From Phycisphaerae bacterium RAS2 (GTDB lineage: Bacteria; Planctomycetota; Phycisphaerae; UBA1845; UTPLA1): 64,000 nucleotides of DNA. This document shows, one piece after another, positions 24,007 through 38,951 of the stretch (positions are counted from its first letter, which is position 1; the number at the start of each line of letters is the position of its first letter). Location of the stretch: the NCBI GenBank assembly GCA_007753915.1, contig CP036352.1, positions 1,984,001 to 2,048,000 on the forward strand, in the 5' to 3' direction. The notes below the pieces were generated by a model. The model saw only the letters and a program-made list of their open reading frames with translations, was not told the origin of the DNA and made no database searches. Position numbers and translations under genes: made by a program.

Positions 24007-24031
24007 TGGGCGAGGCGGGACTCGAACCCGC
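24007..24031 (+). repeat. Left attachment site (25-bp direct repeat of tRNA-Leu 3' end)
   Basis: These 25 bases repeat exactly at 38869-38893, inside the tRNA-Leu gene. The core GGGCGAGGCGGGACTCGAAC is the acceptor stem and T-arm read on the opposite strand. The flanking bases differ at both ends. No tRNA body is attached here, so this is the displaced end produced by site-specific integration. Confidence 0.93.
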
Positions 24032-24220
24032 TGCGAATTCGTTCGGAAATCTACAAGACGAATCGACCGAGTGTGCAAAAAGCTGTGCAGTCGATCCGGA
24101 TGGTAATCGTACTGTGGTTCAGGCCGCGCTCAACCGTTGGGCCTTACTCTCCCAGACGGATCGGCGTCGTCTCACTGAAATGGCCGCGTCGGCGGTGCGG
24201 GCATCCGTGGAGGCCGCGCC

Positions 24221-24592: not shown

Positions 24593-25182
24593 GATTGAAG
24601 GGTCGGAAATTCGACAGGGTTCGACACCATAAAAAGGGCAAATCGCCTATGGCGCGCCGCCAGGTGGCGTTCCTGACTGCCTTTGCCCGCTTCGGCCTTG
24701 TGACCCGCGCGGCGCAGGCAGCCGGTATCCATCGCACGACACACAACAACTGGCTCAAGCAGTCGAGCTATCGCGAGCGGTTCCACGATGCGACAAAGGA
24801 CTTCGTTGATCGAATCGAAGCAAGGGCGTTACATCTCGCAATTGATGGTCAAATCCGGAAGAAGTTCTACAAGGGCCGGCCAATTATCGACCCGGTGACG
24901 GGTAAGCAGTATTTCGAGGTTGAGTACGACGCGACGATGCTCATGTTCTTGCTCAATCGGCATCACCCGGATTACCGCGCCCAGTCGTTCGGCGAGGATG
25001 CAAGGTACGGATTCGCGAATCGCGCAATCACGGTTCGGGATGTTGTCAACTTGCTAAAACACTTCCAAAAGAAAAGGCCGCGTACGGATTGTCCGCATGG
25101 CGGCAAGAAAAGTTCGGGTATAGATGCGCAGTGCCACCTGCTTATTGAAAGCACGACCAGGCCCGCGCAGAAAGGTAAGTAG
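24589..25182 (+). CDS. HTH protein resembling phage terminase small subunits (phBC6A51-like)
   Basis: This 197-residue protein is basic at its N-terminus and contains a helix-turn-helix stretch (VTRAAQAAGIHRTTHNNWLK). It is followed by YRERFHDATKDFVDRIEARA and a central FEVEYDATMLMFLLNRHHPDYR segment, a layout seen in small-terminase-like HTH proteins. ATG 24589 is chosen because a G-rich Shine-Dalgarno stretch precedes it and it overlaps the previous stop. No large terminase gene follows, which is unusual for this family. Confidence 0.65.
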   Translation: MRLKGRKFDRVRHHKKGKSPMARRQVAFLTAFARFGLVTRAAQAAGIHRTTHNNWLKQSSYRERFHDATKDFVDRIEARALHLAIDGQIRKKFYKGRPIIDPVTGKQYFEVEYDATMLMFLLNRHHPDYRAQSFGEDARYGFANRAITVRDVVNLLKHFQKKRPRTDCPHGGKKSSGIDAQCHLLIESTTRPAQKGK

Positions 25183-25185
25183 GTC

Positions 25186-25848
25186 ATGCCAGTTACAGTT
25201 AGCAAGCCGATGTACGAACAAGTAACCAAGGATGAATTGCTTGCGGTCGCCAACGGGGGCCTGGCAGCGGCGATGCGCGTGCGCGAGTCGATTCAGGTCA
25301 AGCCGGAGCTTGCGATCGCCATCAAGCGAGCATCCGGTGCGACTCCCTTCAAGCGCATCGGGCTGACGCTCTCCGATGGTCGGACACTCTTCATCGAGTC
25401 AAATGTCGGGCTGATGGTCGGCCCGCTAGAGGTGCTCTACAAGGATCGCGACGGCAAGAAGGCTTCAGTTCCGCTGAATCACATTTCCCGCGTGGAGGTG
25501 CTTGAGCAATCGACCGGCGCAAGTCAGCAGAGCCGGACAACTGAATCGGCATCATCCGATCGCCCAATGTACGAGACGATTGACAAGGGCGACCTGCGCA
25601 AATTCATGAGTGGGATTCCCGTCGCGTCCGGCGATTCATCCGGGAAGTCGAGCGACGAAAGAGCAGTTGACGCGCTGCATCAACGGCTTGGCCGAATCGA
25701 GAGCCGAATGCAGGAAATGAAGGAAGATTTGGGCGAGAGCCATGGGCGGAATGCCGGCCAGAAACGAGAAGACGACAAGCCGCTGTTTGAGACCATGACG
25801 GCCCAATCGTTGCGAGATGACATTCGCCGGGCCGCGCTCTTGCGTTGA
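25186..25848 (+). CDS. Element protein with a PF-RI beta domain and three copies of a short peptide motif
   Basis: This 220-residue protein starts 3 bases after the previous stop. Residues 40-105 (GATPFKRIGLTLSDGRTL onward) form a small beta domain also found in the next gene. A related 12-14 residue motif occurs three times: KPMYEQVTKDEL near residue 8, RPMYETIDKGDL near 126 and KPLFETMTAQSL near 198. Between the last two lies a heptad-like coiled-coil stretch (HQRLGRIESRMQEMKEDL). The motif may be a repeated docking peptide. The function is not recognised. Confidence 0.65.
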   Translation: MPVTVSKPMYEQVTKDELLAVANGGLAAAMRVRESIQVKPELAIAIKRASGATPFKRIGLTLSDGRTLFIESNVGLMVGPLEVLYKDRDGKKASVPLNHISRVEVLEQSTGASQQSRTTESASSDRPMYETIDKGDLRKFMSGIPVASGDSSGKSSDERAVDALHQRLGRIESRMQEMKEDLGESHGRNAGQKREDDKPLFETMTAQSLRDDIRRAALLR

Positions 25849-25916
25849 CCCGATTCATACATCGCGAATGGACTCGCTGATTGACAGTTTGCAGAGCAAA
25901 CGAAGGAGAGCAAACG

Positions 25917-26183
25917 ATGAAAGACTTTTTGAAAAAAGCACTGAACGCCCGACCGTTCAGGCGGATCATTCTGGTGACGTACGATCGAAGCACCCACGAC
26001 ATTCTTTCTCCGGACCGTGTGACGCTGGAGGGAAATGCGGTCGTATTTACACTGAAGACCGGTGAGCAACGGGCCATCAATTTGGATTGGCTCACAACAA
26101 TCAAGCTTCCTGCGGAAGTTCACGGTAAGCCAACTCCGTTGGCCGGCGCCACGACTGTGGCTACCAGCGCCGATGACGATTGA
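25917..26183 (+). CDS. Small PF-RI beta-domain protein
   Basis: This 88-residue protein is preceded by a strong AAGGAG site 9 bases before ATG 25917. Residues 10-60 (NARPFRRIILVTYDRS onward) align by eye with the beta domain of the gene just upstream: PF-[KR]RI, a polar turn, then alternating strands and a closing LTTI/ISRV. Small proteins with this fold are common in planctomycetes, but I know no function for them. A large hairpin follows the stop codon. Confidence 0.65.
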   Translation: MKDFLKKALNARPFRRIILVTYDRSTHDILSPDRVTLEGNAVVFTLKTGEQRAINLDWLTTIKLPAEVHGKPTPLAGATTVATSADDD

Positions 26184-26192
26184 CGCGAAAAA

Positions 26193-26240
26193 GTGAAGGG
26201 GGCCGATCCAGTACGTCACTACTGGGCCGACCCCCTTCAC
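26193..26240 (+). terminator. Long inverted repeat between element genes
   Basis: The outer ten bases GTGAAGGGGG and CCCCCTTCAC pair perfectly. The inner arms CCAGTA/TACTGG pair after two or three mismatches or wobbles, leaving a short loop around CGTCAC. There is no T-run after it, so it could be a factor-dependent terminator, an RNA-stabilising hairpin or a protein site. Confidence 0.55.
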
Positions 26241-26302
26241 GATGAACTGAACATCGGGGATTTTAGATCAGTAAGACTTGATTGCAAGAGAAAAAGGTCA
26301 AC

Positions 26303-26647
26303 ATGGGTGCATTGACGATCACGGGACCAACAACCAGGAGCGTCATTAGAACCGATGGCGGATCGGTGACGCTCTCCGGAACTGTGGATGCCGAGGGGCT
26401 GGCTGGATGCACATGGCGCAACAGCCGCGGCGGGAATGGCGACATTACGCCGGTCGATGGGGATTGGACGGTCGAAGACATCCCGCTCCAGATCGGCCTC
26501 AACGTCATTACGGTGACGGCGACCTACAACGAGGGCGAGACGATCAAGGCGCGGGCATGCGTCACGCGGAATTTTGCCGGCGCTCCGGCGGCCGGCGACC
26601 GCGGGAAACTGATTCGACCAAAGCGGAGAGGTGTACGGAATAGATAG
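26303..26647 (+). CDS. Ig-like beta-sandwich protein (Big/glucodextranase-B type)
   Basis: This 114-residue protein is mostly a single Ig-like domain. VTLSGTVDAEGL, then CTWRNSRGGNGD and IPLQIGLNVITVTATYNEG, match the pattern of bacterial Ig-like/glucodextranase-B domains (VTWSNSRGGSG .. VPLQ.G.NVITVTA). Phages use such domains on capsid or tail surfaces. The tail GKLIRPKRRGVRNR is basic. ATG 26303 is preferred over TTG 26282. The 3' end is close to the next gene. Confidence 0.65.
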   Translation: MGALTITGPTTRSVIRTDGGSVTLSGTVDAEGLAGCTWRNSRGGNGDITPVDGDWTVEDIPLQIGLNVITVTATYNEGETIKARACVTRNFAGAPAAGDRGKLIRPKRRGVRNR

Positions 26648-26663
26648 AGACCGGAGACGAATC

Positions 26664-28112
26664 ATGGCGAGAATGGGCTTAATAGCAGGCGTTGCGCTAA
26701 TGTTCGGCGCTGTCGCGATGGAGTCGATGGGAGAACCGAGAATGGCTACAACCGTAGAGTTGGTTATCAATGGATCGAACACCGGAACCGCCCGAAACAA
26801 CGACGGCACGTTCTCGCGAATCGAAGACGGCGATGCGTCTTATGTTTCAGAGGGGACGGCCGATGTTCGCAAGTCCTACGGGTACTTCAATTTGGCAAAA
26901 GTGCCAAAGGGGACCGTGCTGGACTCATTGCAGGTGCAGTTCGAGGTGACGGATGTGAGCGATGCCACGAGCAACCTCTTCGCGTGGTGTCTGTTCCAGG
27001 ATTATCGAGGCACCGACACGGATGAGGAGCTTTTCAATCGAATCGCGGCCTATGTATCGGCCAACGATATTAGCCAAACGGCTACTACGGTCGGCCTCAA
27101 AACGCTGACTTTCCCCGCAGGGACGGTCCAGCTACTCAATTCGCTGCTAGAACTAGGCGAATTACCCTCAATCGGCATTGGACTGGCGGGCGATGATGCG
27201 ATTCAGCAAATTGGTTGTCGGATCGGCGATGAATGGCGGCTAATTGCAGTCTGTAAGACACTGGAATGCCCGAATCCATTTGATGACCAGCGAATTGGAA
27301 AGCGGATCGACAGCGCGTTCCCTCGCCTTGCTGTGGTCGGCCCTCGAATGTCGTCAATTCTCGATTTGCTGTTCAGGCAGTTGGTATCGAACAAGAGTCG
27401 GATGGAGCAGGCTGGACGCTTTGCGATCAACCGGCATGAAAGCCGAGGGTTTTCCTTCGAGGTTGAGAAAGGACTCATCCACAATGGAAGGGGGCAGGTC
27501 GTCGGTGAGCTTCAGGAGCAGGAAACCGTCCCGGTTGATGACGCCACGGAAAACTTCATCGAATACGACCCCGATCAGGACGAAATCGCTGTCAATGCTG
27601 ACGGCTTCACGCCGGGTCGCATCAGTTTGCACCGTGTCCCCCAGGCTGCTACCAGCAAGCCGACCGGGTTGTATGAAGACGCTCGGCCCTCGTGCGCGAT
27701 TCTGTACGGAAAGCGAATTGGGCCACTCAACTTGGTCGATGGGCTGGGGGCCGAGTTCGGATCAATCGAGTTCGAGGCTGCGGCCCAGGTTGATGACGAA
27801 ATCGTGGTCACCGCGACACTGAAAGACTTTGAAGGCGCCACGATCGAACAATCGCGGATTGTCGAAGTCTGGCTAGGGGATTCTCCCTATGGATGGCTGA
27901 CGACAGCGGAGCCGGCGGCTTTTGAGGTTCATGAGGCTGGTACGGAACTGGAGGCTGTGACGGCCGGGAAGCGGCTTCGCGTAGAGACAATTGGCGGAGA
28001 GGTTGAATTCTCGGTTCGGAGCGTCGAGGCGCGGACGTACTACCTGCACGCCGAGCTTGACGACGGCCGCCTTTTTGTGAGCGAAGCAATTGAATTCGAG
28101 GCGTCCGAGTAG
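26664..28112 (+). CDS. Beta-rich phage structural-type protein
   Basis: This 482-residue protein begins with a hydrophobic stretch (GLIAGVALMFGAVAM) that could be a signal or membrane segment. Residues 35-190 have a DNRLRE-like beta-sandwich pattern (SYGYFNLAKVPKGTVLDSLQV). The C-terminal 120 residues (VWLGDSPYGWLTT .. GGEVEFSVRSVEARTYYLHAEL) resemble a domain recurring in phage neck and tail proteins. It lies directly upstream of the tape-measure gene, the usual place for tail structural genes. The exact role is unknown. Confidence 0.6.
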   Translation: MARMGLIAGVALMFGAVAMESMGEPRMATTVELVINGSNTGTARNNDGTFSRIEDGDASYVSEGTADVRKSYGYFNLAKVPKGTVLDSLQVQFEVTDVSDATSNLFAWCLFQDYRGTDTDEELFNRIAAYVSANDISQTATTVGLKTLTFPAGTVQLLNSLLELGELPSIGIGLAGDDAIQQIGCRIGDEWRLIAVCKTLECPNPFDDQRIGKRIDSAFPRLAVVGPRMSSILDLLFRQLVSNKSRMEQAGRFAINRHESRGFSFEVEKGLIHNGRGQVVGELQEQETVPVDDATENFIEYDPDQDEIAVNADGFTPGRISLHRVPQAATSKPTGLYEDARPSCAILYGKRIGPLNLVDGLGAEFGSIEFEAAAQVDDEIVVTATLKDFEGATIEQSRIVEVWLGDSPYGWLTTAEPAAFEVHEAGTELEAVTAGKRLRVETIGGEVEFSVRSVEARTYYLHAELDDGRLFVSEAIEFEASE

Positions 28113-28224
28113 GGCGATGCACAGCTAATTGCACGCTCCCGCGTTGTGACACGCGAAACCTTCGGCGATTTGGCCGGGTTCGAGTCGTTGCACGACTAGA
28201 GCGCGATCCGATGGAGTGGATCAA

Positions 28225-30933
28225 ATGTCCGATGTTGCGATCAGCATGGGGTTGATTGACCGCGTGACGGGCGGCCTGCGCGGCTATGAGCGCACGGTGG
28301 ATTCCCTCCACGCCAAGCAGATGCGGTACACGCGGGAGGCGGAAGCCGGGCAACGGCGACTGGCGGCCGGTTATGCGCGGCTCGGCGGCTCCATTGATTT
28401 CTTCACCCGCAAGGCCACGACGGCCGGGCAGTCCATCTTCAGGAGCTTCCAGACCGCCACCCGTGCAACCCTCATGTGGGGCGGCGTCGCCAGCGGTGCG
28501 GCGGCCGGCGCGATGGGGCTGTTGCTCCGGCAGGGCATCAAACTCAACGACGAAATGGAGCGGTATCGCATCACGCTCACGACCGTCATGCGGTCCCAGG
28601 AGAAGGCCAACAGTCAAATCGCGTGGATGATTCGATTCGCCGAGAAGACGCCTTTCGACGTGCAAGGGTTGGTGCAGGCGTCCGCGCAGTTGGAGGCGTT
28701 CGGCCTCAATTCCCGGAAGTGGATTCCGCTGGTGGGCGACCTGTCGGCGACGTTCGGCGGCACGACCGAGACCGTCAACGAACTGGTGGACGCGCTCGGC
28801 AAGCTGAAGTCCGGCCTGACCGGCATCGCGTTTCGATCCATCCGGCGATTCGGCATCTCGAACGAGGAATTGGAACGCCGCGGGGCGCGGTTCGACAAGC
28901 GCGGCGAACTGCTGACGCCGCCCGATGAAGCGCTCGGGATGCTGGAAGACATCATCAAGTCGCGGTTCGGCGGCATGATGCAAAACCTGCTGGGAACCTA
29001 TACGGGCGTCACGTCCAACCTGATGGACATGGCGACCAACATGCTGCGCGAGACCACGAAGCCGTTGTTCGATCGGCTGCGCGGCGCAGGCGGCGGGCTG
29101 CTGGGCGGTCTGGATGAGCTGCGGGACAGTGGCGTGCTGGGCTACCTGACGGGCCGTGTGGGCGGAGGCATCAACGCGCTGGCAGGCCGCGCCGGCAACT
29201 TCTTGAGTTCCAACATCCTGCAACCCCTCATGGGCGGCGCGAGCCTGAAGGACGTGGGGCTTGGGCTGTTCGATCAGATCAAGACACCGGCCGCGGAGTT
29301 CATTCGATGGTTCGCCGGCACGATGGTCAGCGCGATATGGAGTTCGCTCAAGATTCTCATGTCGTCATCGGAGGGGCGCGCGTTGCTGGGCTATGGCGCA
29401 GCGTGGCGGTACGGCGAAACTGCGATCGGGCTTTTGGGCGATGCCGTAAAGGCGACAGGAACCTACTTCGGTGGCCGGGGCATCGCGCGGGCAATCGCGG
29501 GCCGGGGGGCGGCGGCATCCGCGCCCGCGATGGTCGGCAGATTCACGACACCCCTCATGGCCGCGCAGGCCGGCGCAGCGAGTCCCGGCGCGGTCGCGAT
29601 GTCGGCCGCCAACTCCGGGGCGTGGATGTTGCCGGGCTGGGGAACGCTCGGCGCGGCGGGGCTGGCCGGAAACTTCCTCGGCACGGCGGCCTACAACGCC
29701 CTCAACCCCATGACGGCGAACAACTGGCAGGGCCGAACCGGCCGATGGCTGGGCACGAAGGCGTCCGAGTGGTGGAACGGTCCCGTCAATGAGTTCACGG
29801 GCAACGGCGCCGCGTGGGGGATGCAGCAACACGCCGCCGGCGTGGCGGACGATATCGCAAAGCGGTTCGGCCAGTCGGGCGTCTCGCTGTTCACCGCCAT
29901 GCGGGCTGAACGTGGCGGCATGATGCCGACCACCAAAGAGTTTGAGAGCGCGTGGGCGAGGATCGGGGCAACGAACGCCACGGACAACATCCGAGACCTG
30001 GCGGGCGAGTTCACGGGCCTCAATCAATCCATCGCCGAGTTCGCCCAAAAGGCCCGCGATGACGCCACGTTTGCCGGCAACCAGTTGTCCGACATGCTGG
30101 AGGGGCTTTCGCGCGATTTCCTGACCGCTGAAGAGCGCATCAACCGCCTCACGCGCGCGATGCCGACCTTCAGCCAGCAGATCAATTCGTCGTACCTGGC
30201 GGCCGGCAATGCCGCCCTTCTGGCGTTTCGAGACCCCACCAGAGCCGGGGCGGCCGTCGATGCCCTCAACATGGCACGCGGCTCCATCATGGGAATGCGG
30301 AACAAACAGGCCGAAGCCGAAATGGCGCTGGCGGTGGAGCGGTTCAAGCTGCGGGGCGATTCGGTGGAACGCAACCGCGGCCTGCTGGGCCACTTCTCCG
30401 AAGTGTACGGCGACCCGATGGAGGTTGCGCGCCTGCGTGAGCAGGCCCGATCGGCGCTGCTGTTCAACGCCGGGCAGCGAGACCTGAAGACCAACCGCCT
30501 CATCGAAATCAACAAGGCGACCGGCCTCATCAACCCGGACGCCATGCGCCGCCGCCTCATCGACGACTTCATCGGCAGCGACACCGAATTGCGCGGCCTG
30601 TTTGATCGTTCCGGCGGCTTCTCGCAGACGGGCGGCGCCCTTCAGTCCGAGCTTGAGCGGATCGGCCAGCGGTTCAAGCTGTTGAGCGAACAGGACATCG
30701 CGAATCTTGACGCGGTCCTTCAAGAGCTGCGCACCACGATCCCGGATGCCTTCGAGGACGGCGCCCAGAAACTCGCCGAGAAGTTGCGGCAATCGCTGGC
30801 CGTGACGGGCGTGGAGTTGAGCCAGGCCATGAAGGATGACCTCGTGGGCAGTATCCGGGGTCTCGTGAAGGAACTGCAGCGCCAGGGCGGTGCGCCGTCC
30901 GGCTATGCCGAAACGGTCCCGACGGGGTATTGA
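28225..30933 (+). CDS. Phage tail tape measure protein
   Basis: This 902-residue protein has the tape-measure N-terminal domain (MRSQEKANSQIAWMIRFAEK, TPFDVQGLVQASAQLEAFG, LVGDLSATFGGTTETVNELV). A Gly/Ala-rich middle with two hydrophobic stretches (ATLMWGGVASGAAAGAMG and WGTLGAAGLAGNFLGTAAY) and a long helical C-terminus follow. The protein sets tail length and usually passes into the host membrane. Its presence shows descent from a long-tailed phage. No chaperone, tube or baseplate gene flanks it. Confidence 0.88.
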   Translation: MSDVAISMGLIDRVTGGLRGYERTVDSLHAKQMRYTREAEAGQRRLAAGYARLGGSIDFFTRKATTAGQSIFRSFQTATRATLMWGGVASGAAAGAMGLLLRQGIKLNDEMERYRITLTTVMRSQEKANSQIAWMIRFAEKTPFDVQGLVQASAQLEAFGLNSRKWIPLVGDLSATFGGTTETVNELVDALGKLKSGLTGIAFRSIRRFGISNEELERRGARFDKRGELLTPPDEALGMLEDIIKSRFGGMMQNLLGTYTGVTSNLMDMATNMLRETTKPLFDRLRGAGGGLLGGLDELRDSGVLGYLTGRVGGGINALAGRAGNFLSSNILQPLMGGASLKDVGLGLFDQIKTPAAEFIRWFAGTMVSAIWSSLKILMSSSEGRALLGYGAAWRYGETAIGLLGDAVKATGTYFGGRGIARAIAGRGAAASAPAMVGRFTTPLMAAQAGAASPGAVAMSAANSGAWMLPGWGTLGAAGLAGNFLGTAAYNALNPMTANNWQGRTGRWLGTKASEWWNGPVNEFTGNGAAWGMQQHAAGVADDIAKRFGQSGVSLFTAMRAERGGMMPTTKEFESAWARIGATNATDNIRDLAGEFTGLNQSIAEFAQKARDDATFAGNQLSDMLEGLSRDFLTAEERINRLTRAMPTFSQQINSSYLAAGNAALLAFRDPTRAGAAVDALNMARGSIMGMRNKQAEAEMALAVERFKLRGDSVERNRGLLGHFSEVYGDPMEVARLREQARSALLFNAGQRDLKTNRLIEINKATGLINPDAMRRRLIDDFIGSDTELRGLFDRSGGFSQTGGALQSELERIGQRFKLLSEQDIANLDAVLQELRTTIPDAFEDGAQKLAEKLRQSLAVTGVELSQAMKDDLVGSIRGLVKELQRQGGAPSGYAETVPTGY

Positions 30934-31099
30934 TCGGGCTTGACTGGCCGATCAAGTCGATAGACGATTCTCAAAGTTCGCCGGGCCGCAAGGCGCCTAT
31001 TTGACACGCCGGCATTGTCCCAAACGTGAAGGTGTGGAAACTGCGCCGAGCGGCCGCGGCGGACCCGTTCTTCCGTGCGCCCACTGGGGTAGAAGCAAA

Positions 31100-31606
31100 A
31101 TGGCAATTATCACCGTCACTTGCCAGTCATGCTTAAAGGCACTCCATTTTAGCGATGATCGCGCTGGAACGATTGTAAAGTGCGATTGTGGCGAGCGCAT
31201 CAAATTACGCGAGGCTCCACCCAATTGGTTCGCATCCGAGCCGGCCAAGACTGTTGGAGAATCAACGGGAGTAATTGAAGCTGCCGTCCCGGAATATGGA
31301 TGGTTGATGTGGTGGGCAGAGGTTACGCGCTGGACCGGGATAGTTGGACTGATTCTTGCGATATTGGCAGCGATGCTCGCGGGGTGGGACTATCGAAAGG
31401 CAACTACTAAAGACGACGCCGAATTTTATTATTTACTAATTTGGGTATTTGTAGGCGCGGCCGTGAATTCTTCATTAGTCATTGGGTTTGGGCAAGCGCT
31501 TATAGCATTTCGCGACTTGGTGCGCAATTCCTGGCGAGCAACGCGGGCGACGGAATGCACACACAGCGTCTTTCGGGCATTACTGGATAAGTCGGCCCGT
31601 AAGTAG
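31100..31606 (+). CDS. Zinc-ribbon membrane protein
   Basis: This 168-residue protein starts with a zinc ribbon (TCQSCLKALHFSD .. VKCDCGERI), a type common at the N-terminus of planctomycete proteins. Two membrane segments follow, around WTGIVGLILAILAAMLAGW and LLIWVFVGAAVNSSLVIGF. The tail is basic and soluble. Its composition is less GC-rich than its neighbours. It may be a cargo or host-interaction gene carried by the element; the function is unknown. Confidence 0.65.
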   Translation: MAIITVTCQSCLKALHFSDDRAGTIVKCDCGERIKLREAPPNWFASEPAKTVGESTGVIEAAVPEYGWLMWWAEVTRWTGIVGLILAILAAMLAGWDYRKATTKDDAEFYYLLIWVFVGAAVNSSLVIGFGQALIAFRDLVRNSWRATRATECTHSVFRALLDKSARK

Positions 31607-31777
31607 ATCGAGCGAAGGCACTGCGCCGGAAATTGCACAGCATTGCAGCAGAACAATCGCAGATCGCGCGCGAGCCGGGTAGTTCGAGTCCTGAAGTGAC
31701 TCGCGCCAGTTGCGGCCCTCCAGGTGGATGCTGGTGGAATCTGGGTTTCACGCGCAGAATATGCCGACCAGAAACGA

Positions 31778-31814
31778 GCCGACCCCGCCAGTCCGGTGGA
31801 TTAGCGGGGTCGGC
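31778..31814 (+). terminator. Hairpin after the structural module
   Basis: GCCGACCCCGC and GCGGGGTCGGC form a perfect 11-bp stem around a 15-base loop. It lies between the zinc-ribbon membrane gene (plus) and the 54-residue gene (minus). It could terminate transcription from either side, though neither flank has a clean T-run. Confidence 0.55.
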
Positions 31815-31852
31815 CGATACAACTAAGTCCTCACATCGCGGTGATGTGGATG

Positions 31853-32017
31853 TTACTTTGTGCAAGTCCCGTTTCGGTCCTTGCCCTTGCACTCGTCGCA
31901 AAGTTCTCCACTGGTCGGCTTGTCCGTCTTTTCGACGTAGTCATACGTCGGCCAGTTTGAGCAGTTGCGGCAATAGTGCCAAGTGTCGGAGTCCTTCTTC
32001 CTTCGATATGTAGCCAT
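31853..32017 (-). CDS. 54-residue zinc-ribbon protein
   Basis: The minus-strand frame encodes a 54-residue protein starting MATYRRKKDSDTWHYC and ending with LCDECKGKDRNGTC. Two CxxC pairs (CRNC, CDEC) define a compact zinc ribbon. The high content of Asn, Trp, Tyr and Lys in an ordered pattern is typical of a real small protein. Its ATG abuts the ATG of the opposite gene, the two forming CATATG with no base between them, so at least one must be leaderless or start elsewhere. Confidence 0.65.
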   Translation of the reverse strand: MATYRRKKDSDTWHYCRNCSNWPTYDYVEKTDKPTSGELCDECKGKDRNGTCTK

Positions 32018-32302
32018 ATGAATCTTCTCCAGCGTGACACAACGTCACGTGAAATCTGCAAACTCTGTTACCATGTGAACCCGGTAGGGTTCAACGTTCC
32101 GAACGATGTATGGCTGGCGGTCGTGCCAGACCACGTAAAGAGCTCGGTCGTTTGCCTATCGTGCTTCACTCGGCTTGGGGATGAGAAGGGAATCCCGTGG
32201 GATCACGAGATTGATCTCTACCCCGTCAGCCTTGCGACGCACCTGGGCATCGACCGGGCAATTCGCCACAAAAAAGAGATTTTGTTGGCGTCAAACTGTT
32301 GA
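32018..32302 (+). CDS. Small zinc-binding phage protein
   Basis: This 94-residue protein contains CKLCYHVNPVGFNVPNDVW and VCLSCFTRLGDEK, two CxxC pairs around an NPVGF..VPDDVW-type core found in small phage proteins. The end YPVSLATHL also looks conserved. A clear Rho-independent terminator lies about 100 bases downstream. ATG 32018 is the only good start and lies back to back with the minus-strand gene. Confidence 0.65.
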   Translation: MNLLQRDTTSREICKLCYHVNPVGFNVPNDVWLAVVPDHVKSSVVCLSCFTRLGDEKGIPWDHEIDLYPVSLATHLGIDRAIRHKKEILLASNC

Positions 32303-32401
32303 ACGCGGGCGGGGGACGTGGTAATATCGGAACCCAGTAGCCCGATCCATCGGGGTTGCGCATAGCAGCCGTCCTTGACACAACATTCGGAACGGGCTTC
32401 A

Positions 32402-32438
32402 GAGGCCGGGACGCGCCAACGTCTCGGCCTCACCCTTT
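32402..32438 (+). terminator. Rho-independent terminator
   Basis: GAGGCCGGGACG pairs with CGTCTCGGCCTC (one wobble) around a six-base loop, followed by ACCCTTTT. It would end the transcript of the small zinc-binding gene and insulate the regulatory region downstream. Confidence 0.75.
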
Positions 32439-32720
32439 TCCGAATAAAGTCTACTGTAATGGTTATCGATCTTCTGTCAAGAATCACCCGCCTGAACATC
32501 TACCAAACATTGTGAAACTTTTCACGAACCAAGCGAAGGTGGATCATCCATTCGCCATTGCCGACGACTTCCCAACTAGCAATTCTTGCTTGAACGGCGT
32601 CGACGGTGCGCGATAATGGCTTAACCGGACAAGCGCCGACGGGCGCTGCATCGTCGGGCATGGATGCCGTTACTCACCTGGCGGCATCCGTACCCGGCGA
32701 TCCGGTTACAGGTGAACACC
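32439..32720 (+). promoter_or_regulatory. Regulatory region with operator-like palindrome
   Basis: This 280-base stretch between the terminator and the next gene has no convincing frame and is AT-richer than its surroundings. At 32512-32525, GTGAAA-CT-TTTCAC is a perfect two-fold symmetric site of the kind bound by small phage repressors. I did not find an unambiguous promoter. Confidence 0.45.
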
Positions 32721-33404
32721 ATGTCACAAACGGCCAATCAATCTACAATCGTAGATGTTCCGAGTGTTCCTACGACGGACGAATGGCTCGCACTGCTTCA
32801 CAGCGAGTACGAAGCGCCTCTGGAGCGGCTTCAGTTTCGTCAGGCGGAGCATTTCCGAAGCAAACACGGGAAGCGGGCCGCACTTCCTTCGCGATTGACT
32901 CACCCCGTCAAGATTGTGCCGGAATGCTTCCTAGCCCGCACGCCGGACGGAAAACTCTATCGCTACTGCGAGGACGCGGCGGAATTGCATTGGACTGGCG
33001 AGATCGCCGATCGCGTGCCAACGGATCGGACTCGCGAAGACATCATCGGCAAATATGAGTTGCTTCGCGCGTTAGGGCCGCGGATCAATCACGCCGAGCT
33101 TGAACGACGAGAGGCCGACGAACTGGAAACGTTTGAGCGACTCAATCGCTTGCGCGAGGTCGACGATCGGGGTTCAGAATGCCTGCCGGGCCTCTCTGTG
33201 AATGCAGCGGAGGTTTACGAGCTATTGATAGAGTTGCCTTTGTATCGTTGCCTTACAGGCCCAGAGATTGTTGAGAAGTTGCGTGAAAAGAGAATCTACA
33301 TCAGCGAAGAAAGCCTGCGCAGCCGCATCATTGCCGAATTGAAGCCATATGGCATTGAAAACGCCCCCAGAAAAGGCTATAGGATACTTCGCAAGAGAAA
33401 ATGA
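32721..33404 (+). CDS. Element protein with C-terminal winged-helix-like region
   Basis: This 227-residue protein is preceded by the regulatory region; ATG 32721 is preferred. The N-terminal half is charged and of unknown fold (EWLALLHSEYEAPLERLQFR). The C-terminal 65 residues (VYELLIELPLYRCLTGPEIV to RIIAELKPYGIENAPRKGYR) look like a winged helix with a GYR wing. As first gene of the rightward early operon, with palindromes on both sides, it is a candidate repressor or activator of the element. That role is inference. Confidence 0.6.
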   Translation: MSQTANQSTIVDVPSVPTTDEWLALLHSEYEAPLERLQFRQAEHFRSKHGKRAALPSRLTHPVKIVPECFLARTPDGKLYRYCEDAAELHWTGEIADRVPTDRTREDIIGKYELLRALGPRINHAELERREADELETFERLNRLREVDDRGSECLPGLSVNAAEVYELLIELPLYRCLTGPEIVEKLREKRIYISEESLRSRIIAELKPYGIENAPRKGYRILRKRK

Positions 33405-33407
33405 AAC

Positions 33408-33426
33408 GCATGCGCTGCGCATGCGA
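33408..33426. promoter_or_regulatory. 19-bp near-perfect palindrome
   Basis: CGCATGCGC-T-GCGCATGCG is a 9-bp inverted repeat around one base, lying immediately after the stop of the winged-helix-like gene and about 40 bases before the next gene. It is a plausible operator or a short hairpin. Confidence 0.5.
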
Positions 33427-33464
33427 TATATCACCCAGCCTGCCTTCCGTGCGATTATCCGCGC

Positions 33465-33704
33465 ATGGAAACCCACAAGAACTCACCACCAATACCCCTC
33501 GGCCCAATGGCGAGGATAGCAGGGGTTCCGACTTCCTGGCTGCGCCAGCAGGCGGAAATTGGGACGATTCCACATCTGCGCGCCGGAAATAAACTGCTTT
33601 TTGACGAACAGACTGTTGTGGAGATAATTACACGTTTGGCGAAAACTGGAGCGGCTGAAACAATCCTCGTCGGCGATCGTGAGTTGGGAGAGGCCGCTCA
33701 ATGA
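33465..33704 (+). CDS. Small HTH protein, excisionase/MerR-like
   Basis: This 79-residue protein carries a MerR/excisionase-type DNA-binding pattern (GVPTSWLRQQAEIGTIPHLR, AGNKLLFDEQTVVEII). Start choice lies between ATG 33465 and ATG 33507. The stop overlaps the next gene (ATGATG). With its neighbour it forms a pair of small HTH proteins typical of integrative elements, where they control excision or repression. Confidence 0.7.
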   Translation: METHKNSPPIPLGPMARIAGVPTSWLRQQAEIGTIPHLRAGNKLLFDEQTVVEIITRLAKTGAAETILVGDRELGEAAQ

Positions 33705-33961
33705 TGCCCGCGAAGGCAAAAACGCCGCCGATTCTGCGCGTCTCGGTTGCTCCGGCGCCGGCGGAGTCGCAGCCTGCCAAGCTGGCGGTCTCGGAGCGCG
33801 AAGCCGCGCAAATGCTCTCCATCGGAGAAAGAACGTTGCGCGGGCTGCGCAATGCAGGCAAGGTTCATTTTACCAGAGTCGGGCGGCGTGTCGTTTATCG
33901 CGTTGTAGATTTAGACACACTCCTCCAACGGGCGAAGGAAGGCGGGGACGCGCCGCCGTGA
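33704..33961 (+). CDS. Excisionase-family HTH protein (helix_turn_helix_17 type)
   Basis: This 85-residue protein contains LAVSEREAAQMLSIGERTLR followed by GKVHFTRVGRRVVYRVVDLD, the classic excisionase/AlpA-type winged HTH. The N-terminal 25 residues are Pro/Ala-rich. ATG 33701 and ATG 33704 are both possible; the former overlaps the upstream stop. The stop overlaps the next gene (GTGA). It is a likely recombination directionality factor or regulator. Confidence 0.8.
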   Translation: MPAKAKTPPILRVSVAPAPAESQPAKLAVSEREAAQMLSIGERTLRGLRNAGKVHFTRVGRRVVYRVVDLDTLLQRAKEGGDAPP

Positions 33962-34800
33962 GTTGGAAAGTTTCCAAAGCCGTCAACGATCACTTCTTTG
34001 CCATTACGCCGGCTCCTGCGAAGACCGGACGCGCGGTCCGCGTACCTGATCCGCGCCCAATAGACAGGTGGATTCTCGCCAACCTGGCAGATTTGAGTGA
34101 TGAGTCTGGGCGCGTGCGCGCAGCCATTTCTACCGTTGCGCGCCGCACCGGTTTGACGCGCCGATCGGTGCAGCAAGGGCTTACTCGGCTGGAGGCGCTC
34201 GGCCTGCTTGGCGCCCAACGGTCTCGTGGTGGCGCAGCGGCGGACCAAACGACCCGCTCCACTTTCCAAATAACGCTCCCCCACGGGCGCACGGAGTGCG
34301 CCCCAACGGGTGAATCAAGTGCGCCCGTTGGGCGCATGGTCAGCGCCCCGACGGGCGCACGCCAGGGCAAGGACGGGCGCACCGGGTGCGCCGATACCGA
34401 ACGTTTTCCTGGGTATGAACCGAATAAAAAACGTAACGTTGCTTGCGCAAAGTTGGATCGCAGGCGGGCCGCCTTCGCAAAGACCTGCGGCCAAGACCTG
34501 AAGGCCCTCATCCAAGACGACTTCGTGGACGACCGCTTCAGGTCCGCCACTGAAATCGGTGTGCTGCCTGATACCGATCAAGCCAGGCTGCGAGTTTGGG
34601 CGGCGGCCGAACAGACCCTTCTCGCGGCGTGCGACAACGCAGAAACCAAAATCGCCCTGTTTGTCTATCTGGTGTGCGACCCGAACGGGGTCGCGTGCAT
34701 CACGAATGCCGCCGACGAATCGGCTGCGCACCGAATCAGGCTGTTCTACCACGGCGAGACTTCGCGGCGATTGACGGCAGATGAAGAGGTGCTGACGTGA
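33958..34800 (+). CDS. Replication-initiator-like winged-helix protein with internal repeats
   Basis: This 280-residue protein starts at GTG 33958, overlapping the previous stop. Residues 20-85 contain a phage-O-like winged helix (RAAISTVARRTGLTRRSVQQ, GLTRLEALGLL). Residues 100-140 are low-complexity CAPTG/SAPVG/SAPTG repeats that arise from short DNA repeats. The C-terminal 140 residues are helical. The arrangement of an N-terminal HTH, repeats embedded in the gene and early-operon position parallels initiators that carry the origin within their gene. The function is inferred. Confidence 0.6.
   Translation: MSWKVSKAVNDHFFAITPAPAKTGRAVRVPDPRPIDRWILANLADLSDESGRVRAAISTVARRTGLTRRSVQQGLTRLEALGLLGAQRSRGGAAADQTTRSTFQITLPHGRTECAPTGESSAPVGRMVSAPTGARQGKDGRTGCADTERFPGYEPNKKRNVACAKLDRRRAAFAKTCGQDLKALIQDDFVDDRFRSATEIGVLPDTDQARLRVWAAAEQTLLAACDNAETKIALFVYLVCDPNGVACITNAADESAAHRIRLFYHGETSRRLTADEEVLT
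34283..34382. repeat. Iteron-like repeats inside the initiator-like gene
   Basis: The ten-base word ACGGGCGCAC occurs exactly at 34283-34292, 34351-34360 and 34373-34382, and inverted at 34319-34328. Shorter derivatives (GTGCGCC) lie between. Four exact copies within 100 bases, within the candidate initiator gene, suggest a replication origin. Confidence 0.5.
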
Positions 34801-35075
34801 ATCTATACACGGCGCTCCATGAAGCCGATCGTGCCATTGTTGAGGCAGCCCGTGCAAGGGTGCGATGGATTCAATCGGTACTTCGGCGTGAACGAAACTC
34901 CGGAGCGATTCGCAAACTCCGACTGGACGAACGGCGGGCGATGATCCATTGCGCGATGACCGAGGAAGTCTTTGGTCAACCGCACGCATTCGAGCGCCCG
35001 AAGCCCAAATGGGAATCAATGCAGAATGCTGAAGGGCCGAAATTGGCGATTGTTCGAGAGAGAGTGATAGCATGA
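34797..35075 (+). CDS. Small charged element protein
   Basis: This 92-residue protein starts at a GTG overlapping the previous stop (GTGA) and ends overlapping the next start (ATGA). It is rich in Arg, Glu and Ala (ADRAIVEAARARVRWIQSVL) and predicted helical. No motif is recognised. Support comes from coding character and the coupled position in the early operon. Confidence 0.55.
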   Translation: MNLYTALHEADRAIVEAARARVRWIQSVLRRERNSGAIRKLRLDERRAMIHCAMTEEVFGQPHAFERPKPKWESMQNAEGPKLAIVRERVIA

Positions 35076-35361
35076 GCCTGATCGAATTGCTACCAGAGCG
35101 GGCGGCGGCCGAATTGATTGGCGTTTCTGAGTGCCGGTTGCGCGAAGGGCGATTGAGTCGAGAGGTCGCTCACGTGCATCGACTCGGCCGGGCGACGGCT
35201 TGCTCCGGCTGGCCGATGCGTTGGAACGGCAAGCGGCTGAATTGCGTCGGATGGTGGCGGCCCGCGTGGATGCTGCCGGAACGCGACAGGTTCGCCCATG
35301 GCGCGTCGAGCCGGCCGAGGCAGCGCCTGATTCGGGAGAGGCTGAGAGGGGGCAACCGTGA
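35072..35361 (+). pseudogene. HTH gene with an apparent -1 frameshift
   Basis: The frame beginning at ATG 35072 encodes an excisionase-like start (MSLIELLPERAAAELIGVSE .. VHRLGR). Coding character then continues in the -1 frame (GDGLLRLADALERQAAELRR to AERGQP) and stops at 35361. The switch lies near 35190 at a CGGCCGGGC stretch. Joined, the product is about 96 residues. It may be a real mutation, a base-calling error in the G run, or programmed slippage. In the uninterrupted first frame the protein would end at 35392 with non-family sequence. Confidence 0.45.
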
Positions 35362-35490
35362 TGCGACTGCACAGCATTTTGCGCTCATTTAGGCGAGAAC
35401 CGTTGTTTCCAACGAACCGCAGCGGTTTTTCGAGTCCTGTTGCGACCCGCACCAGTGGATCGTGGGTCAGCCCACACGCTGAACTGTCCT

Positions 35491-35537
35491 GCGGGCGGGG
35501 TGCTGGGGTATTAGCCTCAGGCCCCGCGCCGCTTTTT
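35491..35537 (+). terminator. GC-rich hairpin followed by T-run
   Basis: GCGGGG and CCCCGC form a strong stem around an imperfectly paired 20-base interior (GTGCTGGGG .. CCTCAGG), followed by GCCGC and TTTTT. It fits termination of the early operon just before the promoter of the next operon. Confidence 0.55.
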
Positions 35538-35550
35538 AACCAGATTTCCC

Positions 35551-35584
35551 TTGACGCTGGTGTTGGGAAGTGTAATAATTACAC
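35551..35584 (+). promoter_or_regulatory. Sigma-70-type promoter with overlapping operator palindrome
   Basis: TTGACG at 35551 and TAATAAT at 35573 are spaced 16 bases apart, a good housekeeping-type promoter. The -10 box lies within the symmetric site GTGTAAT-A-ATTACAC (35570-35584), so a repressor bound there would block transcription. The promoter would drive the operon from 35633 through the integrase. Confidence 0.65.
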
Positions 35585-35632
35585 ACCAACAGCGAGCGTA
35601 TCCCGCCGATACCGGAATTGAAGGGTAAAGCG

Positions 35633-35944
35633 ATGCCGAGCAGTGAATCAGAACCGATTATTTTGAGCCGGCGCGATTGGTTGGAAATCAGCGGCGCTCT
35701 CCGGCGCCGCGCGAACGATGAACACCGCATAGCCGAGCGTCAACGGATACAGGCCATTATCGAACGGATCGGAGTTGGCGGAAGCACGGCCGCCGAGCGC
35801 GGAGTTCTGGGTGCGAAGGCATCGGGGGGGTTCCAAGAGTTTTGTCGCGTTGCCGATTCGTTGGGCGTGCCAGTTCCGGCGACGGCGGCCAGGTTCTTCC
35901 AAGAGCGGATGAATGAAATCCTGCCGCTGGACAGCGAGGCTTGA
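35633..35944 (+). CDS. Small element protein
   Basis: This 103-residue helical protein is the first gene after the operator/promoter. It has an Arg-rich middle (SGALRRRANDEHRIAERQRI) and a C-terminal FCRVADSLGVPVPATAARFF segment. ATG 35633 is preferred. It is followed by the next gene after 3 bases. No family is recognised. Confidence 0.55.
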   Translation: MPSSESEPIILSRRDWLEISGALRRRANDEHRIAERQRIQAIIERIGVGGSTAAERGVLGAKASGGFQEFCRVADSLGVPVPATAARFFQERMNEILPLDSEA

Positions 35945-35947
35945 GAG

Positions 35948-36262
35948 ATGCAATCACCATTCAGCCAGGAAGCGATTCGGGCCGCCGCGGCCCTCAAGTC
36001 GATGCCGCTTTCAATCCAGCGCGCGATTGTGGAAGTGCTGGAGCGGCGCGCGCAATCGCCAGCGCAGGGAGCGGACGGTTTCGCCGACGACTGTGACGAT
36101 CAGCATAGCCGCAACAGATTCGCGCGCAACATTGAGCGGCACAAAGCGCGTTGTTTCGAGTTGGCGCAGGTCGCGCTGGGATTGAGCCGCGACAAAGTAG
36201 AGCAACTTATCGCGGCAGTGCGGCGAGAGGTGGAGATTCATGCGGCAGGGCGCACAGCGTGA
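35948..36262 (+). CDS. Small helical element protein
   Basis: This 104-residue protein (MQSPFSQEAIRAAAALKSMP) has two amphipathic helical stretches and a C-terminal ALGLSRDKVEQLIAAVRREV segment. It starts 3 bases after the preceding gene and overlaps the next (GTGA). No motif is recognised; coding is supported by coupling and codon character. Confidence 0.55.
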   Translation: MQSPFSQEAIRAAAALKSMPLSIQRAIVEVLERRAQSPAQGADGFADDCDDQHSRNRFARNIERHKARCFELAQVALGLSRDKVEQLIAAVRREVEIHAAGRTA

Positions 36263-36663
36263 TGGAAGCGATGGACGACAATCTGAAGCATTCTGTCCCG
36301 GCCGGCTGGTGGCGCAGTGAGCGCGGCTTCTTGAGTGTCGAGGGGGCGATATTGACCGCGTGGTACTTCGCGCGGTTGGAAGACATTTATCTGCGAGACG
36401 TTGGGAGACTGCCGCTCCAAGCCGAGGTAGCCGACCTGCTGGAGTTTGCTTCGGCCGGAATGATCCGGGGCGATGTTGGCGACGTGGCGGCCGAATTCTG
36501 TACGGCGCTTGGGGCGCCCAACGCTCCGACGGCCAGGATCGTTGGAAGCCAAAGTCCGGCCGCCCGCGTGCGCGATGGCTGGCACCCGAATACCGACCCA
36601 TGCACGGGTCAATTGTTGAAGCGTCGAGAAGGCGAGACACCAAAGCACGGAGAAGAAAAATGA
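36259..36663 (+). CDS. Small element protein
   Basis: This 134-residue protein starts at GTG 36259 (or ATG 36262). The WWRSERGFLSVEGAILTAWY stretch and LADLLEFASAG-like helices suggest a globular fold. The C-terminus is polar and basic. The stop overlaps the next gene start (ATGA). No family is recognised. Confidence 0.5.
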   Translation: MMEAMDDNLKHSVPAGWWRSERGFLSVEGAILTAWYFARLEDIYLRDVGRLPLQAEVADLLEFASAGMIRGDVGDVAAEFCTALGAPNAPTARIVGSQSPAARVRDGWHPNTDPCTGQLLKRREGETPKHGEEK

Positions 36664-37103
36664 AAACACAAACGGCGAAGAAAGGCAGAGCAGTTCAGCG
36701 AAGGCGATCGGCCGAACTACCGGACTGGGCAGAACCGCCGGAAACGGATCGCGTCTGCTTCACCGGCCGGACCAACGGCGAGTATTTCCCGCCGCGATAC
36801 GTCCGTCACAAGATGGATGATGAAATCCGGGCGGACATCGACAAGGCGCGCGGCTCGATTGTGCCTCGCGGGATGGATCATGTTCAGGTGTGCGTGTTCC
36901 TGGGCAAAGACGGCGGCGAAGAGGTCGCACGGTTTAGCCTTGTCGGACTGGAGAACACGGCCGAGGTCGTTTGTGAACGGCTCGGCGCGTACCTGCAATG
37001 GATGCAATCGCACCTGATTCTGGAGTTGGCAAAGTCGATGGAAGAATGGATTGCCGAGCAACCGCAGTTCATCGTCATCCCCAGCGGGAAGGCGGGCGGA
37101 TAA
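36660..37103 (+). CDS. Small element protein
   Basis: This 147-residue protein has a basic N-terminus (KKGRAVQRRRSAELPDWAEP) and a mixed alpha/beta body with HVQVCVFLGKDGGEEVARFS. The helical C-terminus is LQWMQSHLILELAKSMEEWI. It overlaps its neighbours by ATGA and TAATG junctions, so it is part of one translationally coupled operon ending in the integrase. The function is unknown. Confidence 0.55.
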   Translation: MKTQTAKKGRAVQRRRSAELPDWAEPPETDRVCFTGRTNGEYFPPRYVRHKMDDEIRADIDKARGSIVPRGMDHVQVCVFLGKDGGEEVARFSLVGLENTAEVVCERLGAYLQWMQSHLILELAKSMEEWIAEQPQFIVIPSGKAGG

Positions 37104-37597
37104 TGGACACCGCGATGGCGACACGCGACAATTCGGCTGCCATGATCGTACCCGTTGCGATACGAAAAACAGGCGGCCGATTCGAGGCGTTTGCTCCCGC
37201 GTTCGCCGACTTGAAGCCCGTGCGCGCGGCGTCGATGGATGCCGCGCTCGCGAGAATCACAGAGTCCGTAGCGTCGCACATTGCAGACCTGGCCGATTCC
37301 GGGACAACGGTTCCGGATGTCGGCACGGTTGAGACGATTGCGAAGCGGCCGGAGTGCAAGCGCGCCACCATTACCGTTGTCCAGGTCGATGACAAGGCGC
37401 TCGAGACCGATCGGGAGCGGGTCAACATCATCATCGCGCGGCGCATTCTGGCGGCCGCGGATGATTATGCGAAGCGAAACGGCCTGAACCGGTCCGAGTT
37501 GTTCACGAAGGCGGTTGCGAAGTTCATCGGATTCGACCCTCGCAAGATTCTCCGATTCAAGTGGCGTGGTCGGCCGGCGAAGAAAAAGGGGCGATGA
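37103..37597 (+). CDS. HicB-like antitoxin-fold protein with C-terminal ribbon-helix-helix
   Basis: This 164-residue protein has a HicB-type N-terminal fold (VAIRKTGGRFEAFAPAFADL, then DAALARITESVASHI) and a C-terminal RHH-like segment (DDYAKRNGLNRSELFTKAVA) ending in a basic tail. No hicA-like toxin of about 60-80 residues lies next to it, so it may be a solitary transcriptional regulator. It directly precedes the integrase gene. Confidence 0.6.
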   Translation: MDTAMATRDNSAAMIVPVAIRKTGGRFEAFAPAFADLKPVRAASMDAALARITESVASHIADLADSGTTVPDVGTVETIAKRPECKRATITVVQVDDKALETDRERVNIIIARRILAAADDYAKRNGLNRSELFTKAVAKFIGFDPRKILRFKWRGRPAKKKGR

Positions 37598-37598
37598 C

Positions 37599-38909
37599 AT
37601 GGCGAGTGTTTCGACGAACAAGAAAGGGCTGAAGCGGATTCAGTTCTTTGACGCGGCGGGTGAACGAAAGAGTATTTGGCTTGGCCGCATGACGGACAGG
37701 CAGGCAGACCTTTATCGCGAGCAGATTGAGGCAATTGTATTTTCTCAAAAAACAGGCGACCCGCTGCCGATTCAAACGGAGCAATGGGTTCACCAGCGGG
37801 CACCTGCCTTCAAAAAGAAGCTGGAAAAGGCGGGCCTGATTGAGATCGAAGTCCAGGAAGAGGCCGCGTGCGCAATGCTCGGAGACTTCATCGAGTGCTA
37901 CATCTTGGGTCGAGGCGACGTAAAGGCTGCGACTGGAATCAGCTACTCTAACGCCGAGCGGAACCTCAAGACATTTTTTGGAGCCGATGCACCGCTCAAC
38001 AGCATCACCCCAGCCCGCGCGGAGGAATGGCGAAATTGGCTTAAGTCCCATGAACGGCTTGCTCCAAACACGATCCGACGGAGGACTGGCATTGCAAGGC
38101 AGTTCTTCAGGGCGGCGGCCAAGCGAGGACTGATTGCCGAAAATCCCTTTGAGGGGCTGGCCGCGTCGGTGCGGGAGAATACGTCACGGTTCTACTTTGT
38201 GACACCGGAGGAGACGCGAGCGTTGATCGACACGGCACCGGACTCTCAATGGAGGCTTCTTATCGCATTGGCGCGATACGGCGGACTGCGCATGCCGTCT
38301 GAAGTGCTGCCACTCGCCTGGGATGACGTGGACTGGGATCGCGGTCGATTCACGGTTCATTCGAGCAAGACGGAGCATCACGCTGGGGGCGGAAGTCGAA
38401 GCGTTCCACTGTTCCCGGAGTTGCTCCCCTACATGCGCGAGGCGTTCGAGATGGCCGAAGATGGAGCGACGCATGTCATTACGCGATATCGCGATGCGAC
38501 ACAAAACCTGCGCACGACGCTCGGAAAGATCATCAAGCGAGCGGGCCTGAAGCCGTGGCCGAAGCTGTGGCAGAATATGCGGTCGAGTCGCCAAAGCGAA
38601 CTTGTTGCAGAGTTCCCGGTTCACGTCGTTTGCAAGTGGCTGGGCAACAGTCCGGTCATTGCTGCGAAGCATTACCTTCAGGTGACAGAGGACGATTTCC
38701 AGCGAGCGGCAACCGAGGCGACAATGAAGCCGGCGCCCACATCCAAAAGTAGCGCAAAAAGCGGCGCACTCGCCGCGGCACCGAGCGGCACGGCGCGGCA
38801 GGCAGCGCAAGCGGCGCTATCAAAAACCGCAAGTCACGATGGCGCAAGGCGCTTAGAATATCAAATGGTGGGCGAGGCGGGACTCGAACCCGCACATCCT
38901 TGCGGATAG
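37599..38909 (+). CDS. int: Tyrosine site-specific integrase
   Basis: The protein has 436 residues in the integrated state. Residues 110-200 form the SAM-like core-binding domain. The catalytic domain has R231 (GGLRMPSE), a Lys in HSSKTEHH, the NMRSSR box in place of HxxR, VVCKWLGNS and the nucleophile Tyr359 in AAKHYLQV, the pattern common in planctomycete integrases. The last 17 residues (from VGEAGLEP) are read from the tRNA-Leu gene on the opposite strand, and the stop lies inside the tRNA. In the excised circle the frame would instead continue from the attachment core into 24032-24224, giving 495 residues with a different tail. Confidence 0.93.
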   Translation: MASVSTNKKGLKRIQFFDAAGERKSIWLGRMTDRQADLYREQIEAIVFSQKTGDPLPIQTEQWVHQRAPAFKKKLEKAGLIEIEVQEEAACAMLGDFIECYILGRGDVKAATGISYSNAERNLKTFFGADAPLNSITPARAEEWRNWLKSHERLAPNTIRRRTGIARQFFRAAAKRGLIAENPFEGLAASVRENTSRFYFVTPEETRALIDTAPDSQWRLLIALARYGGLRMPSEVLPLAWDDVDWDRGRFTVHSSKTEHHAGGGSRSVPLFPELLPYMREAFEMAEDGATHVITRYRDATQNLRTTLGKIIKRAGLKPWPKLWQNMRSSRQSELVAEFPVHVVCKWLGNSPVIAAKHYLQVTEDDFQRAATEATMKPAPTSKSSAKSGALAAAPSGTARQAAQAALSKTASHDGARRLEYQMVGEAGLEPAHPCG

Positions 38910-38951
38910 GGGATTTTAAATCCCCAGCGTCTGCCATTCCGCCACTCGCCC
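38866..38951 (-). tRNA. tRNA-Leu (anticodon UAA)
   Basis: On the minus strand the gene runs from GGGCGAG (acceptor 5' strand) to CTCGCCC, discriminator A and an encoded CCA. The anticodon stem-loop is GGGGA-TTTAAAA-TCCCC, giving UAA. A long variable arm (ATCCGCAAGGAT) marks a class II tRNA, and the T-arm is GCGGG-TTCGAGT-CCCGC. The CCA and 3' third come from the integrated element; the pre-insertion junction at 24007 would have had no encoded CCA. Confidence 0.97.
38869..38893 (+). repeat. Right attachment site within tRNA-Leu
   Basis: These 25 bases equal 24007-24031 and cover the discriminator base, acceptor 3' strand and T-arm of tRNA-Leu on the opposite strand. The integrase frame passes through them in the same register as the frame at the left end. 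Confidence 0.93.

Follow-up and report, generated by a model that had tools for sequence, protein, structure and literature searches.

What becomes of an integrase whose gene runs through its own attachment site, so that integration of the element cuts the gene that drives it? The question is raised by a prophage-like element in a 64,000-nucleotide stretch of DNA from Phycisphaerae bacterium RAS2, hereafter the window. The preliminary description of this DNA held that the integrase frame passes through a 25-bp attachment core and stops inside the host tRNA after 436 residues, that the distal copy of the core is followed in the same register by an open frame to 24224, and that the two parts join into 496 codons without an internal stop. 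When the coordinates were re-derived, these statements proved exact (Table 1). The core (TGGGCGAGGCGGGACTCGAACCCGC) is the same at both positions, and the flanks differ on both sides. Across the inferred circular joint, 37599-38893 and 24032-24224 add up to 1488 nt with the sole stop codon at the end, which gives the 495-residue circular-form integrase that had been claimed. The truncation on integration holds as well: the last 63 residues of the integrase, the tail, are replaced by four host-encoded ones (HPCG). The observation that the integrase frame crosses its own attachment core is confirmed.

Table 1. Coordinates of the integrase gene, attachment cores and other features of the element in the window
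Feature	Position	Strand	Basis or remarks
Attachment core, distal copy	24007..24031	.	identical to 38869-38893
Integrase gene, displaced 3' end	24032..24224	+	open in the integrase register; shared Ala codon, 63 codons, stop
Integrated element, about 14.9 kb, prophage-like	24032..38893	.	PHROGs
Putative arm-type site, distal	24070..24089	.	AGTGTGCA AAA AGCTGTGCA; paired repeat, extent by eye
Divergent tail motif VVQAALNRWALLSQTDRRRLTEMAASAVRA (putative)	24114..24203	+	position, register; aligns best with the L125 tail
Terminase small subunit	24574-25182		PHROGs
Tape measure	28216-30933		PHROGs
Replication initiator	33679-34800		PHROGs
Integrase frame common to the prophage and circular forms	37599..38893	+	
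Integrase gene as in the prophage	37599..38909	+	436 aa, ends within the tRNA; PF00589 and PF13102 matches
Putative arm-type site, proximal	38748..38768	.	AGTAGCGCA AAA AGCGGCGCA; paired repeat, extent by eye
Host tRNA-Leu(taa); the element restores its 3' end	38866..38951	-	ARAGORN
Attachment core, integrase-proximal copy, within the tRNA 3' end	38869..38893	.	identical to 24007-24031

The ORF at 37599-38909 matches a PHROG integrase. Both of its Pfam matches, PF13102 over residues 109-185 and PF00589 over residues 200-363, are above the cut-off, and in the 436-aa form, positions 2-169 of the 172 positions of the PF00589 model are matched.

The same insertion site without the element is present in a genome of the same genus (G001). 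There, the tRNA-Leu is uninterrupted, contains the same core and is flanked by relatives of the same two neighbour genes, which, from the look of their sequences, we take to encode ATP synthase epsilon and IspE; a search of this genome for the integrase at 1e-30 gave no match. The neighbour gene of G001 lies about 60 bp from the tRNA-Leu, and the window gene at 22881-23987 (minus strand), located outside the distal core, was not detected in the 5-kb G001 stretch. In another genome (G008), the tRNA-Leu(taa), about 1.2 kb off an IspE-like gene, carries a different element with the same 25-bp core. This core is read there in another register (WARRDSNP, versus GEAGLEPA), and the tail is again in the register of the integrase.

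Is this arrangement peculiar to the window? Matches to the integrase query P0001 at E<=1e-50 are present in 41 of the 114 genomes of the order. Used alone, this query found one relative among the genome contigs and none among the viral contigs; the viral relatives were found with the alignment A1 as the query. Among the named phages, there is no close relative, all 65 records being below 60% identity and none covering 80% of the query. We examined 50 related chromosomal integrases from one bacterial order, including that of the window. An antisense T-arm motif (GNNTYGAAC) lies within the ORF behind the catalytic Tyr in 43 of these and after the stop codon in one; two lack the motif, and four are unclassed. 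The target tRNAs of the relatives are Leu, Val, Tyr, Ile, Met, Glu, Ala, Gly, Lys, Asp and Ser.

A second core was accepted in 16 elements, the remaining 34 being affected by the end of the contig, a fetched stretch that was too short or the lack of a placed tRNA. Except for G035a, the cores were picked by sequence identity and not by frame; those of G055, G006 and G012 come from a separate comparison because no tRNA was placed at the end of the gene. Read from the far core, the integrase register stays open for 65 codons or more in all 16 elements, a count that takes for G035a a nearer, 21-bp, lower-scoring core copy with a type B tail (see below), a choice that was not blind, and that becomes 15 of 16 with the farther, 43-bp, higher-scoring copy (8 codons open in register), which was set aside as another tRNA-like copy. 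In the other two registers, such a frame is open in 2 and 1 of the 16 elements, so the in-register tail cannot be put down to chance. In a more distant group of integrases (L070-L073, L079, L080 and L031), the genes run into tRNA-Gly(ccc) and have almost identical antisense ends (AGDGIRTHDVQLGKLAFYH) in several genera; the stretches fetched for this group yielded no second core.

The tails are of two types, A (ELA..V.AWPTLP..IRA.ILA.VRA) and B (FAEA.A.I.RLPLTDAERAEAVRRLLA). The window, G014, G109 and SJ586, four of the 16 elements for which both ends are available, carry tails that belong to neither type and, for this reason, were left out of the profile test. In all 12 testable elements, leave-one-out profiles detect the tail in register with 29-74 bits, compared with at most 2.4 bits in the other registers. 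The preliminary description had likened the tail to a W..L..R..I..M pattern of planctomycete integrases and had named absence of the tail from homologous integrases as grounds for refutation. The pattern is real in the tails of the relatives, and the claim withstands that check, since homologous integrases have conserved, in-register tails behind the far core. The planctomycete likeness stands in part: the relatives share the pattern, but the window tail is only modestly alike, and the label rests on one relative from the Pirellulaceae.

Type A tails are widespread, with matches in 80 of the 114 genomes of the order (E<=0.01) and in 58 of the 392 genomes sampled across the phylum (1e-6); type B tails are present in 20 of the 114 genomes. 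Scans against Pfam and NCBIfam gave no match to the tail in any of the queries (window tail, L103 tail, fused L103, L115 and L125), and homology of the two types was not shown by profile comparison (probability about 1%). The tail type tracks the tree of the catalytic part, in which a branch supported at 100/100 separates type B from the rest. For all tail groups, there are 4 changes on this tree versus 7.9 after shuffling (0 of 200 shuffles as low), with 13 of the 16 inner branches open.

Outside the profiles, we obtained 48 tail matches, which represent the fetched loci and not every match, with L209 repeating both rows of L165 and with L204 looking like a false match. The T-arm motif is upstream of the tail in 40 of these and on the opposite strand in 3; in 35, the motif and the tail share one open segment, in all three registers. 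From their sequences, these matches look like attL ends or remnants. The median pN/pS is 0.40 in the last 35 codons of the tail, 0.70 in the linker, and 1.17 and 1.45 in the two shifted registers, over 55 non-independent pairs that include the L165/L209 repeat; this comparison shows purifying selection on the tail motif.

The tail of the window itself is divergent and is matched by neither the type A nor the type B profile. In a panel of 12 tails that was chosen after the tails had been viewed, its best partner is the tail of L125 (RWALLSQTDRRRL / RWALLTAEERERV), with a score reached by 7 of 1000 shuffles; for the other registers, the corresponding numbers are 745 and 430. A search of the 114 genomes with the window tail returned, besides itself, weak matches only. 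The best of these (L254 in G003; 47% over 36 aa, E=0.003) was rejected, given the stop codon upstream in register. The putative assignment of the window tail rests on its register, its position, the paired repeats described below and modest similarity.

The linker DNA on both sides of the core contains paired tandem repeats, which are clear in 14 of the 16 elements with both ends, partial in G014 and not seen in G008. On the proximal side, the repeats begin 115-161 bp ahead of the core, and on the distal side, they begin 44-128 bp past the start of the core. The paired-repeat score in the window is 11.5, compared with a maximum of 10.0 in 30 shuffles. In G011, one and the same 22-bp DNA repeat is translated as AQQKAQQ on one side and as GAAKSAA on the other. 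We infer that these repeats are putative Int arm-type sites; the gene would then contain a complete attP, and the linker would be shaped by its function as DNA.

A terminator-like hairpin with a T run is found at 38754-38777 of the window, on the tRNA strand and inside the integrase linker, where it overlaps the arm-like repeat. The possibility that the linker supplies a terminator for the restored tRNA was considered and set aside: such signals are present on the tRNA strand in 8 of 40 elements and on the opposite strand in none of 40, with 1.7 expected. Since several of them draw on the A/T run within the arm-like repeats, the signal may be a by-product.

A structural model of the complete enzyme was obtained with AlphaFold2 for a relative, L115 (28 sequences; mean pLDDT 80.5). 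The model has a confident integrase body, whose N-terminus folds into three strands and a helix, a disordered region at 378-461 and two helices at 463-474 and 477-490; its best matches among solved structures are those of lambda Int. Thus modelled, the L115 tail is a helical hairpin that follows a disordered linker, with a pTM of 0.58, at which the docking of the tail on the enzyme is not readable. The divergent tail of the window would form a hairpin like that of L115. The type A motif is also found at the C-terminus of two protein kinase (PF00069) ORFs, L228 (G010:C16, 540-2153, plus strand) and L230 (G012:C13, 1544-2818, minus strand), and the hairpin may therefore occur more generally as a module. 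At three places in G052 (L165/L209, L207 and L196), the end of a type B tail overlaps a small ORF that follows it, is read in a different register and contains the type A motif.

As for free forms, we examined 53 viral loci, and in six of these (L103, L106/L107, L114/L115 and L116), the integrase ORF includes a profile-detected tail and has no tRNA at its end. L106 and L107 share one C-terminus, as do L114 and L115, and in L107, a tRNA is located on the other strand about 330 bp past the gene. Fused tails were recognized by eye in L125/L154 and L142, and the integrase and tail are fused in L233 as well, a contig of a bacterial genome bin. In L103, L114/L115 and L125/L154, the T-arm motif lies 66-69 codons behind the catalytic Tyr and is followed by the tail; the motif was not found in L106/L107, L116 and L142. 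Overall, the T-arm motif is within the ORF in 15 of the 53 viral loci, after the ORF in 2 and unclassed in 2; the other 34 have no motif within or just after the ORF, and many of these end at most 40 residues from the Tyr. There are also counterexamples, namely L127, where the core and the tail are in different registers, and L113 and L120, where the ORF stops within a long core.

The principle of exchanging the end of an integrase by integration is already known from the myxophages Mx8 (IntP to IntX) and Mx9, with related ideas in archaeal suicidal integrases and in mycobacteriophage BPs. In Mx8 and Mx9, as in the window element, a tyrosine integrase gene contains attP, and int acquires a new 3' end on integration (PMC6070905, PMC4701971). 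The swapped Mx8 enzyme is described there as less active (PMC4701971) and as changed in specificity (PMC6070905). Mx8 trades 112 residues for 13 (PMC4701971), compared with 63 for 4 in the window element, and its Int also has an antisense T-arm peptide (STGLEP) ahead of the tail. However, the body of the Mx8 integrase is distant from that of the window (24% over 88 aa, E=0.005), and Mx8 has neither a match to the tail profiles nor paired repeats above shuffles. The window system works like Mx8 and is not its close kin.

The other systems share fewer features. In archaeal SSV1, pTN3 and pT26-2, attP is located in the integrase gene, which is split by integration, as here (PMC8371274), but the suicidal type is left with separate Int(N) and Int(C) parts and the catalytic part cut off, whereas the catalytic domain in the window is complete. 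In BPs, attP likewise lies in a coding frame and integration shortens the protein; unlike in the window, the affected gene codes for the repressor, and what integration removes is an ssrA-like tag (PMC4557955). In streptococcal ICEs inserted in rumA, the att site is in the integrase gene and the C-terminus differs between the integrated and excised states, as here, but these are serine integrases with a protein-coding target gene, and the 3' ends are exchanged with rumA (PMC4701971). In the open-access literature that was searched, we found no description of this integrase lineage or of a conserved swappable tail, and the conserved tail, widespread in the phylum, appears to be new.

The integrase gene of the window element probably encloses the whole attP, such that the circle yields a 495-aa enzyme and the prophage a 436-aa enzyme, the isoform being set by the state of the DNA. 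Under this scheme, the tyrosine integrase gene would hold an arm site, the core and a second arm site, that is, a complete attP. In the excised circle, the gene would be read through into a 495-aa protein, in which a disordered linker, encoded by the attP DNA, joins a lambda-Int-like body to a helical hairpin at the C-terminus. Insertion into the tRNA-Leu would cut the gene within the linker, leaving a 436-aa enzyme with an intact catalytic domain and HPCG for a tail, and excision would restore the long form. Because integration would shorten the integrase and excision would restore it, the isoform would reveal the state of the phage DNA, free or integrated.

By analogy, the tail may help integration or synapsis, the long form being better at integration; the short form would be a weaker or altered enzyme, as Mx8 suggests. 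The interpretation in the preliminary description is supported as regards truncation of the recombinase by integration; that this could damp or redirect its activity is suggested by the Mx8 precedent. A bolder and more doubtful extension is that the conserved hairpin might be an integration-specific module, present only on the circular-phase integrase, and hence part of a phylum-wide, built-in directionality switch that is removed by the reaction itself. If so, the sequence of the enzyme would itself encode the permitted direction of recombination. The arrangement is common among the relatives from one order (43 of 50) and combines a removable conserved tail with a wide choice of tRNA targets and with short and long forms that occur as natural pairs; the effect of the C-terminal swap on the direction of recombination can therefore be tested by comparison.

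Other readings of the tail assign it a different role or none. It might be mainly an independent small module or protein, fused to the integrase secondarily through shared translation and possibly acting apart from recombination. The occurrence of the type A motif in the small ORFs that overlap type B tail ends in G052 and on the two kinase ORFs fits this reading, and the tails in the selection test came from chromosomal sites where, in most cases, the fetched stretch contained no integrase; nevertheless, we regard it as rather unlikely, given that in the 12 elements with type A or B tails the tail is always in the integrase register, across several core registers, and that the tail type tracks the integrase tree. 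Alternatively, the tail might be a degradation signal that makes the circular form unstable, with integration stabilising the integrase. This possibility, brought to mind by BPs, where the attP swap removes the ssrA-like tag of the repressor and where the integrase also has a C-terminal proteolysis signal (PMC4557955), appears quite improbable for the tails described here, which by eye do not end in ssrA-like fashion and whose conserved part is an internal hairpin.

Incidental read-through, whereby attP happens to lack stop codons in the integrase frame and the tail is meaningless to the integrase, draws on the long frames that arise by chance at the present G+C content (124 open codons in the +1 register of the window) and on the poor conservation of the window tail. 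It is set against the shared register in 16 of 16 elements, the leave-one-out profiles, the pN/pS values and the fused viral genes, and we consider it very improbable; for the family, neutral read-through is rejected on the basis of the register, leave-one-out and selection tests. Inactivation of the enzyme by integration, as in the suicidal integrase of SSV1, is hardly credible in spite of the location of attP within the integrase gene and is rejected because the catalytic domain is whole, only the region past the catalytic Tyr and the linker being removed and the PF00589 match in the 436-aa form being nearly complete.

The reading that we prefer, an integrase gene enclosing attP and producing a long form in the circle and a short form in the prophage, has a practical side. 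The T-arm peptide followed by the tail can serve as an annotation marker for element ends that otherwise resemble spurious small ORFs, and if the hairpin is indeed an integration-specific module, the attL tails would be countable fossils of past integrations.

The genome from which the window comes contains two more tails, L220 (1737-2297, plus strand; about 677.7-678.3 kb) and L221 (1789-2475, plus strand; about 32.3-33.0 kb). Both follow a T-arm-like peptide, the stretches fetched around them contain no integrase of this kind, and the two are likely remnants of other elements.
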